A stretch of 39,560 bases of DNA from a virus. The stretch spans positions 1 to 39,560 of the IMG/VR virus record IMGVR_UViG_3300009177_000068. One strand, 5' to 3'. Shown piece by piece: positions 983 through 10,212 of the stretch. Under the pieces are notes generated by a model. It ran no database searches. It was given only the letters and a program-made list of their open reading frames with translations, and was not told where the DNA came from. Position 1 is the stretch's first letter; each line of letters starts with the position of its first letter. A program made the position numbers and the translations under genes.

Positions 983-1558
983 ATGACCATGCGGAAATAC
1001 CTCGACATCCTGAAGGAAGCGGAAACTCTTCGTTATCCGAACGGCGAAGTTCACCACACCGAATACGATGCGCCCGCAGAGGGCTCGCGTATTCGTGAAA
1101 AGTCCACGGGTCGCGAAGGCGTCATGGTCGATTCCGAGCCGAGCCATCACGGCGAGGATTTCGAGCCCGATGTGTTTGTTGCGTTCGACGACGATCAGCA
1201 CGAAGATAAGCCGGACGAGCAGTTCGTCACTCGTCTCACGCTGAACGAAATCGAGCCCATCATGACTGAAGACCTCGACGACGATGAACCCGAAGTTCCG
1301 CCGTTCACGGTTGAATATTTCGATGAAGACCCTGACGGCGACGAAGGCCGCGCTGGCGACGGCTACTACTTCCAACTCGACGGCGAAGATAGCTGGTCGG
1401 GCGCGTGGCATAGCGAAGAAGAAGCCGAGCAAGAAGCGTGGGCTGCTATCGAGGACCGCAAGGCTGATGCCGAGCGCGCTGCTCGTCGTCAAGCTGCTGC
1501 TGCTGCGGCAGCCGCCCCGGCGCCTGCTGCGACTCCGGCCCGGATCGCCCGCCCCTAA
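983..1558 (+). CDS. Acidic, Ala-rich-tailed protein with a capsid-targeting-like N-terminus
   Basis: 191 aa, function not recognised. ATG 983 is chosen because AAGGA lies 8 nt upstream; a second ATG at 989 would give the N-terminus MRKYLDILKEAE. That end aligns with T4 internal-protein targeting sequences (basic residue at 2, aromatic at 4, hydrophobic 7-8, E10, A11) and contains an L-x-E site of the kind cut by T4 prohead protease. The body is strongly acidic (many D/E runs) with a DGEDSWSGAWHSEEEAEQEA stretch, and the tail is an Ala/Pro-rich low-complexity segment. The acidic, helical character would fit a head-internal or scaffold-core protein, but this is inference. It lies 11 bp after the tail-fibre stop and ends in a shared stop region with the reverse-strand ClpP-like gene. 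Confidence 0.75.
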   Translation: MTMRKYLDILKEAETLRYPNGEVHHTEYDAPAEGSRIREKSTGREGVMVDSEPSHHGEDFEPDVFVAFDDDQHEDKPDEQFVTRLTLNEIEPIMTEDLDDDEPEVPPFTVEYFDEDPDGDEGRAGDGYYFQLDGEDSWSGAWHSEEEAEQEAWAAIEDRKADAERAARRQAAAAAAAAPAPAATPARIARP

Positions 1559-2330: not shown

Positions 2331-2735
2331 ATGCGCGATCTCATCAACCTCGTCGAATCTGCCCAGTATGAGCCAGACCAAAAATATTTCGGGCTCATTC
2401 CGGCAATCAAATATCTGCCGGTGTCCGCTATCCATCGACAGGAGATGGATCACATGCCTGAAGTGATGTCGGTCAGCGATGAGGTGGCCCGCAATATGGA
2501 TTTCTCCGAACCGGTCGAAGTCACCGCATTTCGTTTCGCACACAATGCTCGGGATCGTCAGGAAGACGATGATGCGCTACCCGAAGTCACACTTCGTGAT
2601 GGCCATCATCGCACGGCTGCGGCAATCCAGACGGGACGCCCCTATCTGCCGGTCGAGTGTCGCGCCATCAACGCCAAGGGCTACAAGCTGAACGCGCTGA
2701 TCGCCCTCTCCAAGCAGATCGAAGCGAGGCTATAA
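2331..2735 (+). CDS. ParB/sulfiredoxin-like domain protein with capsid-targeting-like N-terminus
   Basis: 134 aa. The N-terminus MRDLINLVESAQ matches the targeting-like motif shared with four other proteins here and contains an L-V-E cleavage-type site. Residues about 26-110 resemble the ParB-like nuclease/sulfiredoxin fold: IKYLPVSAIHRQE, then PVEVTAFRF, then RDGHHRTAAA at 89-98 and GRPYLPVE, the arrangement seen around the GxHR box of that superfamily. In that fold the box binds nucleotide or phosphate; DNA or nucleotide binding is plausible but unproven. ATG 2331 lies 4 nt after a TAAATA box. If packaged, it could enter the host with the DNA (inference). Confidence 0.65.
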   Translation: MRDLINLVESAQYEPDQKYFGLIPAIKYLPVSAIHRQEMDHMPEVMSVSDEVARNMDFSEPVEVTAFRFAHNARDRQEDDDALPEVTLRDGHHRTAAAIQTGRPYLPVECRAINAKGYKLNALIALSKQIEARL

Positions 2736-2742: not shown

Positions 2743-3003
2743 ATGCGCGAATTCATCAACATCGTCACCGAGAGCAACGACCCGAAGGCACTGAAGGCGC
2801 GGCTGCGCAAGATCGAGTCTGATCGTCGGTATCTGATTACTGCCATGTGCACGAATGCGTGTGGCCGCGCCGCTGCGGCTCTTGCGGAAGGCGACACTGA
2901 ACGCCACGCGAAGATCATGGCGAATGTCGCCACCTACGTGGAGCAGGCTGCCGCGCTGGAAAAGGAAGCGACCGAAGTCGCCAACCAACTAAACGGCGTC
3001 TGA
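2743..3003 (+). CDS. Small helical protein with capsid-targeting-like N-terminus
   Basis: 86 aa, MREFINIVTESN... A GTG at 2740 would add one residue. The first twelve residues match the shared motif, including V-T-E. The rest is predicted mostly helical (KALKARLRKIESDR..., AAALEKEATEVANQL) with an Ala-rich middle; no known domain is recognised. Candidate internal head protein by its N-terminus only. Its 3' end overlaps the convergent reverse gene (2989-3165) by 15 bp. Confidence 0.65.
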   Translation: MREFINIVTESNDPKALKARLRKIESDRRYLITAMCTNACGRAAAALAEGDTERHAKIMANVATYVEQAAALEKEATEVANQLNGV

Positions 3004-3918: not shown

Positions 3919-4748
3919 GCCTTCGCCATCGCCTTCGCATATTTTTCCTTGTTCGCCCAGTAGAAGGTGGCGAACAGTTCGGCCTCTTGGCGGAACGGCA
4001 CGTTGTCCACGGGGTCCTTCGCGGCCTCCGTGGTGATCCAGTTGAGATGGTGCGCGAGGGCTTCCTCGCGGCTCACGGCCGTCGCCATCTGGAAGTTCGA
4101 CATGTGGTTCTCGACTTCTACGTAGCGATCCGACCATGTGATCGAGTAGATGGCGTTCTGCTCAGCGAACCGGCGAATCCATTGCTCGGTGATGTCCATC
4201 AGGTGTTCGGGCTTGCTGACCATCACGTCGCGGCGGATCGACCGAATGGTCTCCACGGCCACGTCCTTGTTGGTCGCCCACAGCGCCTTCATGTCCACGT
4301 CGTCCAAGAACCGATCCGCATAGATCGGGTGCGGGAACGAGTTCGCGCGAAGTTCCGGCATCTCGAAATAGATGGTGATCTCGGACATGCTGCTCGCTTC
4401 GAGTTCGTTGCGTTGCATTTTGTCGTCGAATGCCGCCTTCCCGATGTTCGGGACGTAGGGCATGTGCGCCGAGTGATAGAACTCGTGCAGAAGATAGAGA
4501 TCGTGGATCACCGGGTTGGTGTAGTCGTCGCGGAGCATGATAACGCCCCACCACGTCGAGAAGTGGGCGCGCTCAAGATGGTCGTTCGACATCTCGGCGA
4601 AGATGCGCGGCAGCCACGCGAACCGCTCGACGGCCCGCCAGATGAAACCGCCCGACTGGTGCGAATCACGGAACATGTCCGTCTTCCACTGGCTCAGGAC
4701 GAATTCGTGAATGGCGTCCTTGCTGGCGATGGCACGCACGTTCTTCAT
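3915..4748 (-). CDS. HExxH-containing protein (gluzincin-like metallopeptidase or diiron protein)
   Basis: 277 aa from ATG 4748, overlapping the TGA of the aminotransferase-fold gene (ATGA). Residues 88-92 are HEFYH in the context LYLLHEFYHSAH, and 23 residues later comes NELEASSMSE (114-123) followed by FEMP. HExxH plus a downstream E in an NE..AS context is the pattern of gluzincin metallopeptidases and resembles the ImmA/IrrE layout. ExxH also occurs in ferritin-like or haem-oxygenase-like diiron enzymes, and the largely helical, aromatic-rich sequence would fit those too. Its pairing with a PLP enzyme favours a biosynthetic role, but neither reading is proven. No signal peptide. Confidence 0.55.
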   Translation of the reverse strand: MKNVRAIASKDAIHEFVLSQWKTDMFRDSHQSGGFIWRAVERFAWLPRIFAEMSNDHLERAHFSTWWGVIMLRDDYTNPVIHDLYLLHEFYHSAHMPYVPNIGKAAFDDKMQRNELEASSMSEITIYFEMPELRANSFPHPIYADRFLDDVDMKALWATNKDVAVETIRSIRRDVMVSKPEHLMDITEQWIRRFAEQNAIYSITWSDRYVEVENHMSNFQMATAVSREEALAHHLNWITTEAAKDPVDNVPFRQEAELFATFYWANKEKYAKAMAKA

Positions 4749-5794
4749 TGGATCACCCCGCTGGTTCCGATCCGTTCGGCGAGGCCCGGCGTCAGGCACA
4801 GGCGCACCTTGCCCGCCCGCGTCAGATAGTCGGCCAGATCGTTGGGAAACTCGGTGACGCCATTCGCGAGCATGAACACGTCGGACGGTTCGAGCAGATG
4901 GATTTTGGTTTCCTTGGAAACCCGCACCGTCATGGCGCGCTGGTAGGAACCATAGGTCTCCGGCATGTAGAAGACGCCGTGACGCTGCATCATGGTGGTG
5001 CCGAGACGCAGCCCGGTCAGGCCCTTGAACCATTTGTTGCCGAACAGGCCCAAGTCCTCTTCGCGGCAGAACACGCCGCCGATGCGGTCGTAGTAGAAGC
5101 CGAAGGGCTTCGACAGGCTGAAGACCACGTTGCGGATCGACGGCTGGTTCAGATTGAACTTTTCGACGATCCTGCTCGACGGCACCGCGCCGACGTAGGT
5201 CATGTCGGCCACCACGGTGTTGTGCGGCATCTTCGAGATGAACTCGTTGAACTCGGGCCAGACGTTCCCGTCGATGGCTGACGGCTGACTGATGAAGAAC
5301 ATTTCGGTGCGCGGCATGGACGCGGCGATGGTCTCCCACTTGTCGCGGGGCCATTCTCGCACGATGCACCCGGCGGCTTCCGCCATGGCCTTGTAGCCTT
5401 CGTATTCGCCCTCGAAGAAATTGACGCAGCCGGTCAGGCCGCTCAGGCGGATGCGGGCCGCGTAGGCGAAGATCAGGTGACGAAGGGGCTCGCTGGCCCC
5501 GGCGGTCGGATAGAAGAACGGGAAGAGGGTGCGATCCAGTTCGACCACCGGCTTCGACCACTCGTGCCACACCTCGAAGAACTCTTCGTGGTAGCGATCC
5601 TGCTTTGCGGTCCATGCATCGCGGAATTGTTCGAGGTAGGCGTTGCGCTCGGCTGAGCCCAGATCGCCGAACACCTCGGCTTTCACGGCTTCAGTTTCCG
5701 GGGTGACCAGCGCGTAGACCGTCTTGCTGACGCCCATCGCGAGCAGCCGCGCATTGAGGGCCACGTTCGGGTTGAATTGCGTCGTGGTCGCCAT
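4745..5794 (-). CDS. PLP-dependent aminotransferase-fold (type I) enzyme
   Basis: 349 aa, first gene of a five-gene reverse operon, with an excellent Shine-Dalgarno sequence (AAGGAGG) before ATG 5794. Fold type I marks: YPTAGASEPLRH (about 95-106, cofactor phosphate loop region), FFEGEYEGY, VVADMTYVGA with Asp197 (PLP ring N contact), and FSLSKPFGFYYDRIGG with Lys229 as the Schiff-base lysine and Arg237. Length is near the usual 350-420 aa but short at the C-terminal domain. The substrate cannot be read; transamination, decarboxylation or group transfer are all possible. Followed by an ATGA-coupled HExxH protein. Confidence 0.7.
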   Translation of the reverse strand: MATTTQFNPNVALNARLLAMGVSKTVYALVTPETEAVKAEVFGDLGSAERNAYLEQFRDAWTAKQDRYHEEFFEVWHEWSKPVVELDRTLFPFFYPTAGASEPLRHLIFAYAARIRLSGLTGCVNFFEGEYEGYKAMAEAAGCIVREWPRDKWETIAASMPRTEMFFISQPSAIDGNVWPEFNEFISKMPHNTVVADMTYVGAVPSSRIVEKFNLNQPSIRNVVFSLSKPFGFYYDRIGGVFCREEDLGLFGNKWFKGLTGLRLGTTMMQRHGVFYMPETYGSYQRAMTVRVSKETKIHLLEPSDVFMLANGVTEFPNDLADYLTRAGKVRLCLTPGLAERIGTSGVIQ

Positions 5795-5944: not shown

Positions 5945-6997
5945 ATGAAAATCGGCGTGTTGATCCCGGCCTATAATGAAGAGTGCGTAATCGCCGACAC
6001 CATCGGCGCGCTCATCGTGGCTGGCTATTCGCCGACCGACATTTATGTGGTCAACGACCGCTCCACCGACCGCACGGAAGAGATCGCTCTTTCGCTCGGC
6101 GTGCACGTCATCACGGTCCCGGTCAACGGCGGCAAGGCCAAGGCGCAGGAATATGCGCTGAAGAACTATGGCCTCACCGATCTTTACGACTGGATCGTCT
6201 TCCTCGACGGCGACACCAAGGTTGAGCCCAATTTCGGCCGCGTGTTCGAGTTCGCCGCCATCGACAATCCCGACGTTTCGCTTTTCGTCGGCCAAGTCGC
6301 CTCGGCCAACAACCGCCATATCTTCTCGGCGTATCGGGCGTTCGAATACGCCTACGCGCAGAACATCATCAAAAAGGGTCAGGACAACTTCAGCGTCGTC
6401 TACGTCTCGCCCGGTTGCGCGTCCATGTATAAGTCCAGCGTGCTGGCCCAACTGCACATCGACTCCAACACGCTGGCCGAAGACATGGACCTGACTCTTC
6501 AGGTTCATCGGCTGGGCGGCAAAGTGAAATACGTTCACGATGCGGTAGTCGTGACGCAGGACCCGAATTCCCTCAAGGATTATGTCAAGCAATCCATGCG
6601 CTGGAAGCGCGGATTCTGGCAAACGATCCTCAAGCACCGGACGTTCTCGTTCACGCGCAAGCAAGCGGTGGACTGGTATATGATCTACCTGACGCTGGAA
6701 TCTCTCATCTTCAACAAAATCTTCCTGTTGGGGGCGGCGTGGATTCTGTCGGGTCCGATGGTGATTGTGTGGGGGCTGTTGTTCGACCTGCTCATCTTTT
6801 CGGCAATCGCTTTCTACTCATTTACCAAAACAAAGCGGGTTGACACTCTCACACATATACCTGTATTTTACCTGCTCGCTTACGTCGGCCTCTATGTCCA
6901 CCTCGTGAGTTTTGTAGAGATCATCGTGCTCCGCAAACACATCTTGGCGTGGAACAAGGTCGAACGGTATCAATTCGACGATCTAGTAACCGCGTAA
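5945..6997 (+). CDS. Processive membrane glycosyltransferase, family GT2
   Basis: 350 aa. GT-A domain at about 1-230: LIPAYNEE at 6-13, NDRSTD with Asp38, FLDGDTKVEPN with DGD at 88-90, VSPGCASMY near 154-162, AEDMDLT with ED at 179-180, and QSMRW at 216-220, the QxxRW motif of processive beta-glycosyltransferases (cellulose, chitin, hyaluronan and poly-GlcNAc synthases). Two or more membrane helices follow (about 245-292 and 303-330). It should polymerise or add sugars from UDP-sugars on the inner face of the cytoplasmic membrane. Shine-Dalgarno AAGGAG lies close upstream of ATG 5945. Bases about 6700-6990 are less GC-rich. It is first in a cassette with exported proteins and an L,D-transpeptidase-like protein, suggesting envelope modification. 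Confidence 0.85.
   Translation: MKIGVLIPAYNEECVIADTIGALIVAGYSPTDIYVVNDRSTDRTEEIALSLGVHVITVPVNGGKAKAQEYALKNYGLTDLYDWIVFLDGDTKVEPNFGRVFEFAAIDNPDVSLFVGQVASANNRHIFSAYRAFEYAYAQNIIKKGQDNFSVVYVSPGCASMYKSSVLAQLHIDSNTLAEDMDLTLQVHRLGGKVKYVHDAVVVTQDPNSLKDYVKQSMRWKRGFWQTILKHRTFSFTRKQAVDWYMIYLTLESLIFNKIFLLGAAWILSGPMVIVWGLLFDLLIFSAIAFYSFTKTKRVDTLTHIPVFYLLAYVGLYVHLVSFVEIIVLRKHILAWNKVERYQFDDLVTA
6840..6867 (+). promoter_or_regulatory. Possible internal promoter within the glycosyltransferase gene
   Basis: TTGACA (6840-6845), 16-bp spacer, TGTATT (6862-6867), same spacing as other promoters here. It could give extra transcription of the exported protein gene at 7032. Chance occurrence in an AT-richer stretch is possible. 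Confidence 0.3.
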
Positions 6998-7748: not shown

Positions 7749-8102
7749 ATGGTCGAAGTCGTCGTCCATCTGATTGCGGCTACGATCTGCTTTTCGGGAT
7801 CGTGTCACCCCGTCCTTGTGGGTGACACGACTCCGACTGGCACCTACGATCTGAAGCACTATGCGACCGCTGCTCCCGGCTACGGCGGGGACATTCTGGT
7901 CTACAAGGATGACGGCAGCGACCGCGTGTTCGCCGTCCACCGTGTCCTGAACATCAAGGGCGAAAATCGCCCGCAGCGTTTGCGGAGCAGCAACCCGTCC
8001 GACCGCCGCGCCGTGACGCATGGCTGCATCAACGTCGAGCCCATCGTCTATAAGCGTCTGACGGACTGCTGCTCGTCCGCGAAGCTGGTCATCACCCGAT
8101 AG
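7749..8102 (+). CDS. L,D-transpeptidase-like (YkuD-type) protein
   Basis: 117 aa. VTHGCINVEP at 89-98 matches the YkuD catalytic motif (S/T)HGCxN with Cys93 as nucleophile. His64 (FAVHRV) is a candidate for the upstream motif His, though about eight residues farther away than usual. TTPTGTYDLKHY at about 27-38 matches the substrate-side strand of the family. The hydrophobic first 16 residues may be an export signal, but no clear cleavage site is seen. The family cross-links peptidoglycan or attaches proteins to it, in the periplasm. Shorter than most full-length enzymes. It follows the Ala/Pro-rich peptide by 6 bp and converges directly on the next gene. Confidence 0.7.
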   Translation: MVEVVVHLIAATICFSGSCHPVLVGDTTPTGTYDLKHYATAAPGYGGDILVYKDDGSDRVFAVHRVLNIKGENRPQRLRSSNPSDRRAVTHGCINVEPIVYKRLTDCCSSAKLVITR

Positions 8103-9059
8103 CTACTTCGAAGAGACCTTGAACATTTTACCCCACAGGTCTTGCCGCAGGGGTTTCTTGGTTCCGAGTTCGAAGATGCCAGTCAATCGAAGTGGTGAAT
8201 CCGGGGCGAACACCACTTCATGCTCTTCGGGGAAAATGTAGTTCTGCGCTACGGTTTCTTCGATATTCACCTGACCTGACACTTCACCAACGAACAAGAC
8301 GTTCGGTTGCGCCATCAGGTCTGCGGTGTTGATGTCGGGGCGCAAGGCCCAGAAGAAACCTAGCGAGGCGCCGGGCGTCAATCGGGTGAGATCACTCTCG
8401 TCCAACTGCATGACGCGGTAGACGGTGAGCGCAGGCTGCTTAGCTAATTTTGTTGCGCTGTCGATCTCGATGTTCAGAAGTTCGTGCCAGATGCCGTCGT
8501 CATCATCGTCCTCGGGGAACGCGTTGAGCCCATCCTGTTCGTCGATCAACTGAATGATCCGGGGGATGTTGACTTCGATGAACGGAGCTTCCTCGTTCAG
8601 GTCATCGCCGCCGTAGGTCACGAACATCGCATCCTTGCCGGTGAACAGTTGGATGCCGTCGATGGTCGGATCGAGCGCGCGGACGAACTTGCCGATGTCG
8701 TCGAAGTCAACCACAAACTCGCGGTTGCTCGGATAGCCCAGCAAGCGTTGCGCGCCTTGCAGCCATATTTGGTAATCGTTCACTCCGTCGAAGCGCAGAG
8801 CGTTGTCGGGAAGATAGGCGCGCGGGATTTCGATGACGCGACCATAGGCGGCTGCGTCCTTCTTGTTGGCAGTGAAGTAGAGTCCCAGCCCATAGGTCGC
8901 CATGCCATGACCCGAATGTTCACTGACCCCGCGCCACAGGCGCGCGCTCGCCGGAAGCTTTACCCCATGCTTGCAGCGATGGTCGGAGAGGATTTGGGCG
9001 GCAAGCTCGGGAGGAATTTGTCTCTGAGCTTCAGCCAAAAGATTGATGAAATGACGCAC
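8103..9059 (-). CDS. ADP-ribosyltransferase-like protein with capsid-targeting-like N-terminus
   Basis: 318 aa from GTG 9059, 4 nt after a TAAATA box. N-terminus MRHFINLLAEAQ fits the T4 internal-protein targeting pattern with an L-A-E site. Two regions look like mono-ADP-ribosyltransferases. Region 1 (about 38-125) has LWRG with Arg43, then YGLGLYFTANKKDAAAYG (56-73), like the (H/Y)G..GLYFT....A..Y pattern. Region 2 (about 210-300) has VYRVMQ with Arg215, PGASLGFFWAL at the S-T-S position, and FPEEHEVVF with E279-H-E281 as an ExE-type motif. An acidic run (DDDDD near 184-188) separates them. T4 Alt is a packaged ADP-ribosyltransferase that modifies host RNA polymerase; a comparable injected role is inferred. 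Confidence 0.65.
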   Translation of the reverse strand: MRHFINLLAEAQRQIPPELAAQILSDHRCKHGVKLPASARLWRGVSEHSGHGMATYGLGLYFTANKKDAAAYGRVIEIPRAYLPDNALRFDGVNDYQIWLQGAQRLLGYPSNREFVVDFDDIGKFVRALDPTIDGIQLFTGKDAMFVTYGGDDLNEEAPFIEVNIPRIIQLIDEQDGLNAFPEDDDDDGIWHELLNIEIDSATKLAKQPALTVYRVMQLDESDLTRLTPGASLGFFWALRPDINTADLMAQPNVLFVGEVSGQVNIEETVAQNYIFPEEHEVVFAPDSPLRLTGIFELGTKKPLRQDLWGKMFKVSSK

Positions 9060-9063
9060 CCAT

Positions 9064-9071
9064 TATTTAGG
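9064..9071 (-). promoter_or_regulatory. T4-type late promoter box (CCTAAATA), 4 nt before GTG 9059
   Basis: Reverse strand; the TAA stop of the deoxyribosyltransferase-like gene is part of the box. ATGG follows, then GTGCGTCAT. Confidence 0.5.
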
Positions 9072-9684
9072 TGCGCTTCATGGCCGCCATCAGAAGTTCT
9101 TCCAGATCGTGGAAGACCGGTGTGTTGTATCGCCGGGCCAGAGCTTCGAGATATTTCGTCTTCGGAGACCCGGCCGGGAAGCCCAAGATTGCCTTGCCGG
9201 ACGCGACCGACAGGCCGAACTCGACGTTGGTCGTGAAGGCGGGCATATCGACAAGGTCCCTCGGAACCCAGAAGACAATCGCGCTGGCGCGATCCAGTCC
9301 GGCCCACTCCCATTCGATCTGGCCATCGTAGTTGTCATGGCTCGCCCAATCCGGTTGCTCGGGCACCAAGACCGTTCCCGCAAAGCGATGCTGGTTGAGG
9401 ATCGCCAGCGCACGCGGGCGCCACGACGGCACGTCTTGGCTGCGCGGGGTGGGACCGGCCAAGAAGATGACCTTGGGAAGCTCCTGAAGGGCGTAGACGA
9501 CGTTCATGCCCAGATTGCTGTCCGTGGGCACATACGGCGCGACATCGGCCTCAGCGGGCTCCGCAGAGGCTTTGTGGCACATTCCACCGCACCATTCGCT
9601 GACTTCGCATGACCACTTCGATGGACAGTTCGGACTAGCCTTGAACGCACCACCAATCGGTTGGCTTTCACGCAGGTCGCCCAT
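9067..9684 (-). CDS. Nucleoside 2-deoxyribosyltransferase-like protein
   Basis: 205 aa. From about residue 70: KVIFLAGPTPR, SWRPRALAIL, GTVLVPEQ, YDGQIEWEWAGLDRASAIVFW and TTNVEFGLSVASGKAILGFP follow the nucleoside 2-deoxyribosyltransferase-like pattern (Rossmann-like fold, GP loop, D..D, E-x-G). Such enzymes move deoxyribose between bases or hydrolyse the glycosidic bond and may serve nucleotide salvage. The N-terminal 65 residues are unrelated and contain three Cys in CEVSEWCGGMC. ATG 9684 has no good Shine-Dalgarno sequence; an internal Met about 10 residues before KVIFLAG is an alternative start. Confidence 0.65.
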   Translation of the reverse strand: MGDLRESQPIGGAFKASPNCPSKWSCEVSEWCGGMCHKASAEPAEADVAPYVPTDSNLGMNVVYALQELPKVIFLAGPTPRSQDVPSWRPRALAILNQHRFAGTVLVPEQPDWASHDNYDGQIEWEWAGLDRASAIVFWVPRDLVDMPAFTTNVEFGLSVASGKAILGFPAGSPKTKYLEALARRYNTPVFHDLEELLMAAMKRT

Positions 9685-9828: not shown

Positions 9829-10212
9829 CTACTGTTTGAGCTTCGGCACTATGTATCGGTCAATGATCGCGTCGGCTTCAGCCAATTTGTGTGCGATCTG
9901 TGTGGGGCTGCTTTCCATCGTGGTCAAAAGTTCATCAGCATCCCACGGCTGAACGTCAGACGTGAAGATGTCCACTTGTTTCTGTGGGCCGAGAATGTCG
10001 ATCTCCCGGCCGTCGGGCATCACGCAATATGCATGGGCCACATAGTCACCATGCTCCGCATCGCGATGCATTTGCGCCATGATCGGCCAGCCGAAGCGAC
10101 GGTTCATCGCGACGGCCAACCACATACAGTCGCCGTGGGAGTATTGCTCCACAATGTGTTCAGGCACACCCCGAAGCTCTGCTTCTAGAATGGCCATCCA
10201 GTGCCGCATCAT
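9829..10212 (-). CDS. Papain-like cysteine protease candidate with capsid-targeting-like N-terminus
   Basis: 127 aa from ATG 10212 or 126 aa from the adjacent ATG 10209 (MRHWMAILEAEL). The frame is open further upstream, but that part is shadow of the divergent gene. A TAAATA box ends 5 nt before ATG 10212. Numbered from 10209, HGDCMWLAVAMNRRFG places Cys28 at the start of a helix, then VAHAYCVMPDGREIDILG gives His59 and Asp71. C-helix, then H, then D is the order of papain-like and transglutaminase-like folds; protease activity is an inference. The N-terminus includes I-L-E, usable by a T4-type prohead protease. Confidence 0.6.
   Translation of the reverse strand: MMRHWMAILEAELRGVPEHIVEQYSHGDCMWLAVAMNRRFGWPIMAQMHRDAEHGDYVAHAYCVMPDGREIDILGPQKQVDIFTSDVQPWDADELLTTMESSPTQIAHKLAEADAIIDRYIVPKLKQ

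Follow-up and report, generated by a model that had tools for sequence, protein, structure and literature searches.

Does a gene that joins two ADP-ribosyltransferase (ART)-like domains behind a peptide resembling the capsid-targeting sequence (CTS) of T4 internal proteins encode an effector that travels in the phage head? The question is raised by a minus-strand gene of IMG/VR virus record IMGVR_UViG_3300009177_000068, the whole of which (39,560 bases) is referred to here as the window. A preliminary description had read the product as a two-domain ART-like protein with a packaging-type N-terminus and the logic of T4 Alt, and that reading proved largely right. The product is likely to be a head-packaged, injected ART effector, one of a set of separately tagged domains. 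Three points go beyond that description: the tandem reads as a fusion of genes that are separate in relatives, the C-terminal domain has Ala in place of a Ser, and the tag is carried by a set of genes. The open reading frame (ORF) is present as described, with the following parts.

8103..9059 (minus strand): gene of the tandem ART-like protein; 318 amino acids (aa), GTG start
9027..9059 (minus strand): capsid-targeting-like peptide MRHFINLLAEA, following the T4 IPII/IPIII rule and retained in standalone orthologues; predicted prohead-protease cut after E10 (between LAE and A)
8565..9026 (minus strand): ART-PolyVal-like domain, residues 12-165; R43, Y61, and D143 invariant in four of four aligned sequences
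8532..8564 (minus strand): junction, residues 166-176 (PRIIQLIDEQD)
8106..8582 (minus strand): C-terminal segment, residues 160-318, with ART-fold domain; R215, W237, A238, and E279-x-E281

The N-terminal peptide and its recurrence

The packaging-type character of the N-terminus is supported by its conservation in orthologues, its recurrence on other genes, and the T4-type prohead protease of related phages, and this part of the preliminary description stands. In T4, targeting depends mainly on CTS residues 4 and 7 and processing on residues 8 and 10 [PMC9026906, in the excerpts consulted]; the window peptide matches all four positions. A strict rule was written from the N-termini of T4 IPII and IPIII (NC_000866) and the published CTS positions. 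Three of the 1257 start codons in the window fit it, that of this gene included, against a mean of 0.07 and a maximum of 1 for random stretches of the same proteins (200 draws); among 6254 internal Met sites in long ORFs the single fit is the gene start at 989. Both standalone orthologues of the N-terminal part retain the tag (MREYIDILAEAQ, MRKFINLIEEAR). The arginine form of the pattern, searched as DNA, occurs at 15 places in six of 19 records (reversed-pattern control, 0), and all 15 open ORFs of 82-598 aa, the 15th being the first tag of the L119 frame. Under a relaxed rule five window starts fit (989, 2331, 2743, 9059, 10209); this count proves little by itself, because the control has a mean of 1.97 and a maximum of 7.

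Because of the relatives of its baseplate-hub and sigma-factor genes, the window is taken to come from a T4-superfamily jumbo phage related to the Atu_ph07 type, the host being probably alphaproteobacterial. The baseplate-hub gene is closest to those of Agrobacterium phage Atu_ph07 (42% identity) and Sinorhizobium phage Phosso (40%); the sigma-factor gene has 181 relatives among viral contigs (80 of them kept), the best of them 90% identical and on a 149 kb contig. The phage collection held no near DNA match to bases 1-25000 of the window.

In related phages of 400-600 kb this tag is also found in front of single domains of the ART-PolyVal, GNAT, and other types. Of the ORFs opened by the arginine-form pattern, eight from outside the window were scanned with Pfam: above cut-off, two are ART-PolyVal (E 1.5e-16 and 1.1e-20), one is GNAT, and one is DUF7178; two of the eight are kinase-like by eye, with no significant kinase match in Pfam. 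ART-PolyVal itself gave 26 Pfam matches in seven of 11 records, above cut-off in five. A tag-like peptide stands at or near the ORF start in all 16 separate ART-PolyVal ORFs whose starts were read, a count that leaves aside three matches in one 3662-aa frame of record G048, one second match in a counted ORF, and six matches without a locus. The 578 kb record G003 holds nine ART-PolyVal matches at E ≤0.1, five of them above the Pfam cut-off.

The T4-type prohead protease (PF03420) was found in eight of the 11 records (G001, G002, G003, G005, G049, Atu_ph07, Phosso, and T4); it was not found in the window, a 39.6 kb contig, in G047, whose likely sister contig G001 has it, or in G048. G001 (149 kb) and G047 (415 kb) come from one metagenome and seem to be parts of a single phage near that of the window. 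The idea that phages lacking the protease use giant ART proteins and those with it use tags was rejected, because G062 and G067 combine long ORFs with the protease.

Two ART-like domains and their probable fusion

The preliminary description had marked two regions with ART-like motifs, and both sets are present beyond chance: LWRG (R43), GLYFT (Y61), and AAAYG (Y72-G73) in the N-terminal part; VYR (R215), GASLGFFW (G234, W237), and EEHE (E279, E281) in the C-terminal part, whose family keeps the Arg in 28/28 and the ExE in 27/28. It had further proposed an ART core for both domains. This is borne out for the C-terminal domain by a structural model and fold comparison; for the N-terminal domain there are motifs and weak profile similarity.

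A profile scan for the C-terminal domain gave 33 loci encoding relatives, many on contigs of at least 100 kb, from which a 28-row alignment was made with near-identical loci left out. R215, G234, W237, T269, and E281 are invariant (28/28 each); E279 is Glu in 27 rows, so that ExE is complete in 27. At position 238, 23 rows have Ser, three have Ala (one of them the window), and two have Thr. Relatives also lie within very long ORFs, such as one of 1262 aa in G048. Locus L133 (G048 344000-362000) has a 1262-aa and a 1518-aa ORF as well as a frame of some 3662 aa, with multiple ART-like motifs next to one another.

AlphaFold2 modeling of residues 160-318 with the 28 sequences gave a mean predicted local distance difference test (pLDDT) of 88.4 and a predicted template modeling score (pTM) of 0.80; in the model R215 lies in strand 1 and W237-A238 in strand 2, and a later strand opens with ExE. 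Foldseek against the PDB gave Vis, an ART, as best match (E 0.025); no match reached E ≤0.001. VIA-align was run on 994 chains pre-ranked by Foldseek, and all 50 listed entries are ART-superfamily chains (ART toxins, PARPs, Pierisin, HopU1, the TASOR pseudo-PARP, and TreX/TreTu, which we take to be ARTs), the best with Z 6.7 and a root-mean-square deviation of 3.0 Å over 95 residues. The fold comparison that the preliminary description had proposed thus came out in favor of an ART for this part, and an ART fold of the C-terminal domain is strongly supported by the model. A structure search of a viral-model library returned uncharacterized phage proteins at the top, with no named ART near it and an annotated phage arginine ART at E 0.59. 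A PDB profile match to Vis obtained with six sequences (E 0.051) was dropped, since it was gone with 28. At E 1, Pfam gave no ART-family match for any of the 28 members, and at E 0.1 at most three of them hit the same PHROG; the C-terminal family is an ART family without assigned function that has neither a Pfam nor a PHROG entry.

The N-terminal domain resembles ART-PolyVal, on weaker evidence than that for the C-terminal domain. Across four aligned sequences it retains LWRG, G-x-YFT, A-x-x-YG, and GxD-x-x-FV. The catalytic site of ART-PolyVal is His-Tyr-Asp [Iyer et al. 2017, PMC5512222, in the excerpts consulted]; here the strand-1 His is Arg in four of four, Y61 and D143, candidates for the Tyr and Asp, are invariant, the register of strand 5 being uncertain, and no Glu was seen at the strand-5 place in the four sequences. 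Among the residues whose loss in homologues the preliminary description had named as telling against ARTs, Arg, Ser, and Glu are the family rule in the C-terminal domain, and the N-terminal domain keeps Arg and Tyr with no Glu at the expected place. PF18760 (ART-PolyVal) scored the homologue at locus L085 at E 0.041-0.055 and the orthologue in G047 at E 0.0105, all under the 31.2-bit cut-off. With hhalign, the N-terminal domain against 13 ART-PolyVal domains of relatives gave a score of 30.5 (probability 47.5%) over 16 columns only, where 100 column shuffles reach at most 19.8; against the C-terminal domain similarity is weak (score 22.9, probability 7-11%; at most 17.9 in 100 shuffles). The C-terminal domain showed no similarity to ART-PolyVal in profile comparison. 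Trimmed columns were used in the shuffle controls, with 100 of 100 draws usable per set; untrimmed alignments gave scores near 135 in three and two of 40 draws. A full-length alignment placed C-terminal domains on the N-terminal domain and was not used for folding.

As a whole, the 318-aa protein had no match by tblastn in the phage collection to E 1, none in searches of viral contigs and genome contigs (likewise for the N-terminal alignment against genome contigs), and no relevant match in Pfam or PHROG, so that neither library names it. Its halves do have relatives. The first search, of 37 related records for both halves, found the N-terminal part in G002 (48%) and the C-terminal part in G003 (36%). 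N-terminal relatives are now placed in three other phages (66-67%, 58-59%, and 48% identity), with the quoted motifs retained. The nearest, in G047, is 66% identical over residues 1-154, has 157 aa and likewise a GTG start, and lies in a region sharing genes with the window in similar order; a second standalone orthologue of 149 aa lies on a 499 kb contig. Both stop at the end of the window's N-terminal domain. Between the window and G047 the codons of this domain have a nonsynonymous divergence (dN) of 0.25 and a synonymous divergence (dS) of 1.5: the gene is real and its N-terminal domain is under purifying selection. Relatives of the C-terminal part are separate genes in four records (G002, G003, G005, and G047). 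Because the N-terminal domain stands alone in two phages and the C-terminal relatives are separate in four records, the preferred reading of the window gene is that two effector genes have fused.

Record G002 provides a parallel case. Its 598-aa ORF (L085, 6700-8496) has a papain-like segment, then the N-terminal domain homologue, then, just past that homologue and in mid-protein, a second complete tag, MRNFMNILEG, an order that suggests a fused pair of cargo proteins. The papain-like segment is homologous to a separate window gene at 9829-10209, which links that gene to the N-terminal domain by gene fusion. In the window protein, residues 166-176 follow the same domain after which the G002 homologue has its full tag; that they are the relic of a second targeting peptide is a speculative reading by analogy.

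We lean with some reserve to a broader view, in which relatives of Atu_ph07 among the jumbo phages possess an unlinked polyvalent arsenal of many one- or two-domain effectors (ART-PolyVal, the uncatalogued Arg/ExE ART, GNAT, kinase-like, papain-like, and ParB-like), each behind an interchangeable T4-type capsid tag. Fusions such as the window gene and the doubly tagged G002 gene would then record the shuffling of tags and domains, with the prohead protease possibly cutting between fused domains inside the head.

Proposed function and its alternatives

In the mechanism that we infer, from packaging and cleavage to injection, enzyme activity, and target, a T4-type capsid-targeting peptide would draw the cargo protein into the prohead, the prohead protease would trim it after LAE-10, and the trimmed protein would enter the host along with the DNA. 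The C-terminal ART (Arg215, Glu279-x-Glu281) would then, early in infection, transfer ADP-ribose from nicotinamide adenine dinucleotide (NAD+) to a host macromolecule, most probably a protein; RNA polymerase, the target of Alt, is a guess. The N-terminal domain may itself be a transferase, the second in the protein, whose Arg-Tyr-(Asp) site would be unusual, or else an inactive module binding the target or NAD. The protein would have arisen by fusing two effector genes of a set in which a common tag precedes each of the single domains, which are known from phage polyvalent proteins.

Several observations weigh against this mechanism. The strand-2 Ser of the R-S-E clade is A238 in the window copy, and the A-x-x-H-W-G stretch retained by most C-terminal relatives is degenerate in it; through these two changes, and chiefly because of the Ala, the activity of this domain may be reduced or lost. 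The best Z of 6.7 is moderate and lies under 8, the level the tool treats as safe, the list being nonetheless uniform. The window's own N-terminal domain has no ART-family match in Pfam, and a single-sequence AlphaFold2 model of the whole protein reached a pLDDT of 32, the C-terminal model spanning residues 160-318 only. As to the tag, neither Atu_ph07 nor Phosso contains the strict DNA pattern; 15 of the 16 ART-PolyVal ORFs had already been seen when the relaxed rule was drawn up (the 16th, read later, fits), and of 22 further N-termini 13 fit and nine fail it, namely T4 IPI, T4 Alt, and seven C-terminal relatives (L150, L158, L152, L139, L151, L095, and L097). The same rule fits 0 of 57 annotated starts of Atu_ph07 and Phosso and 11 of 7022 internal Met sites. 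Finally, the virion structural genes of the window begin about 3 kb from the gene and do not adjoin it.

How far do these points favor another role? One alternative is a protein that enters the host from the phage head but lacks catalytic activity, both domains being pseudo-ARTs that bind NAD+, ADP-ribose, or a host protein, for instance to sequester an immune signal derived from NAD or to protect a target. Ala at the C-terminal Ser position, Arg for His with no visible Glu in the N-terminal domain, and a pseudo-PARP fold (TASOR) among the structural matches would all suit it; yet the C-terminal Arg and ExE are kept though much else diverges, and the N-terminal domain is under purifying selection, and we regard a dead enzyme as unlikely.

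Packaging is the point at issue in a less probable account still, that of an ordinary cytoplasmic ART made after infection, like ModA/ModB, whose N-terminal peptide would be a helix with some other role. Packaging is predicted here from sequence, the gene does not adjoin head genes, and the N-terminus of T4 Alt itself fails the relaxed rule. Against this, the same peptide precedes unrelated domains, is retained in orthologues, and matches the IPIII CTS at positions 4, 7, 8, and 10 [PMC9026906, same excerpts]. A toxin of a phage-borne toxin-antitoxin or superinfection-exclusion module is very improbable: ART toxins are known in phage toxin-antitoxin systems [PMC9503650, in the excerpts consulted] and the gene has close neighbors on its strand, but these neighbors differ between the window and G047, none was recognized as an antitoxin-like partner, and the tag would be left unexplained. 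A head-packaged, injected effector is the preferred reading of the gene.

Gene neighborhood and comparison with known systems

Other features of the window that bear on the gene are as follows.

9067..9684 (minus strand): nucleoside 2-deoxyribosyltransferase-like gene (Pfam PF15891, 1e-14), directly upstream in the same direction, stopping seven bases before the ART gene start
9829..10209 (minus strand): small tagged protein, papain-like by eye; tag MRHWMAILEAEL; homologue fused to the N-terminal domain in G002
7749..8102 (plus strand): L,D-transpeptidase-like neighbor (weak Pfam match), convergent with the ART gene
989..1558 (plus strand): tagged gene; tag MRKYLDILKEAE
2331..2735 (plus strand): tag-like gene start, ParB-like by eye; MRDLINLVESAQ, fitting the relaxed rule only
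2743..3003 (plus strand): tagged gene; tag MREFINIVTESN

The deoxyribosyltransferase-like gene might have a role in handling nucleotides or an NAD-derived signal. In G047 a longer ORF, a transpeptidase by eye, also adjoins the orthologue of the N-terminal part. An aminotransferase-like gene (4745-5794; weak) and a glycosyltransferase gene (5945-6997) are cellular-type genes close to the structural genes.

Head-packaged ARTs are known or predicted in T4 and other phages; about 44% of the phage ARTs recovered in one survey have a context suggestive of packaging, and virion ARTs are an accepted theme [PMC9503650, same excerpts], which the present gene would extend. In the parts consulted, neither that source nor PMC5512222 mentions a targeting sequence or propeptide, the former making no mention of a prohead and the latter none of a packaging signal, and a 2026 jumbo-phage review [PMC13282480] mentions neither a targeting sequence nor a prohead protease. 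No description of the C-terminal family or of a tagged single-domain arsenal was found in the open-licence literature, as far as its texts were available. Proteins injected by giant phages usually need virion proteomics to be found; if the present reading is true, a tag that can be recognized in the sequence would allow the injected set of 400-600 kb phages to be predicted from the genome and then tested. The C-terminal family, present on many large-phage contigs, adds an ART family missing from Pfam and PHROGs, and the fusion is relevant to the question of whether a single delivery strategy takes two forms, giant polyvalent proteins in one and separate tagged effectors in the other.

With T4 Alt the window protein would share ART chemistry, packaging, and injection, all predicted here, and the Arg and ExE of its C-terminal domain are of the R-S-E type. 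Alt has 682 aa and an N-terminus unlike this tag, whereas the window protein has two ART-like domains of two different types. The preliminary description had seen no clear sequence similarity to Alt, and BLASTP agreed, giving nothing beyond fragments (best E 0.58, 19 residues). The tag resembles the CTS of T4 IPII and IPIII in its basic residue 2, aromatic residue 4, hydrophobic residues 7 and 8, Glu 10, and Ala 11; it differs in starting with MR rather than MK and in its cargo, a pair of ART-like domains. For T4, CTS-directed packaging rules and injection of internal proteins are described [PMC9026906, same excerpts], whereas packaging is predicted here.

The ART-PolyVal domains of phage polyvalent proteins (PF18760) share the motif pattern of the N-terminal domain, and relatives of this phage encode many of them; the window domain departs in its Arg for the strand-1 His and in a score under the family cut-off. 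Polyvalent proteins are defined by several disparate domains on one polypeptide that is delivered with the DNA; the window protein has two ART-like domains only, and in these phages most of the domains occur as individual tagged proteins, not as segments of one giant polypeptide. Vis and TreX/TreTu are among the solved folds nearest to the C-terminal domain, and Vis has the ExE motif; they stand apart in their 8-15% identity in the structural listings and in the lack of a sequence match to the full 28-sequence profile.
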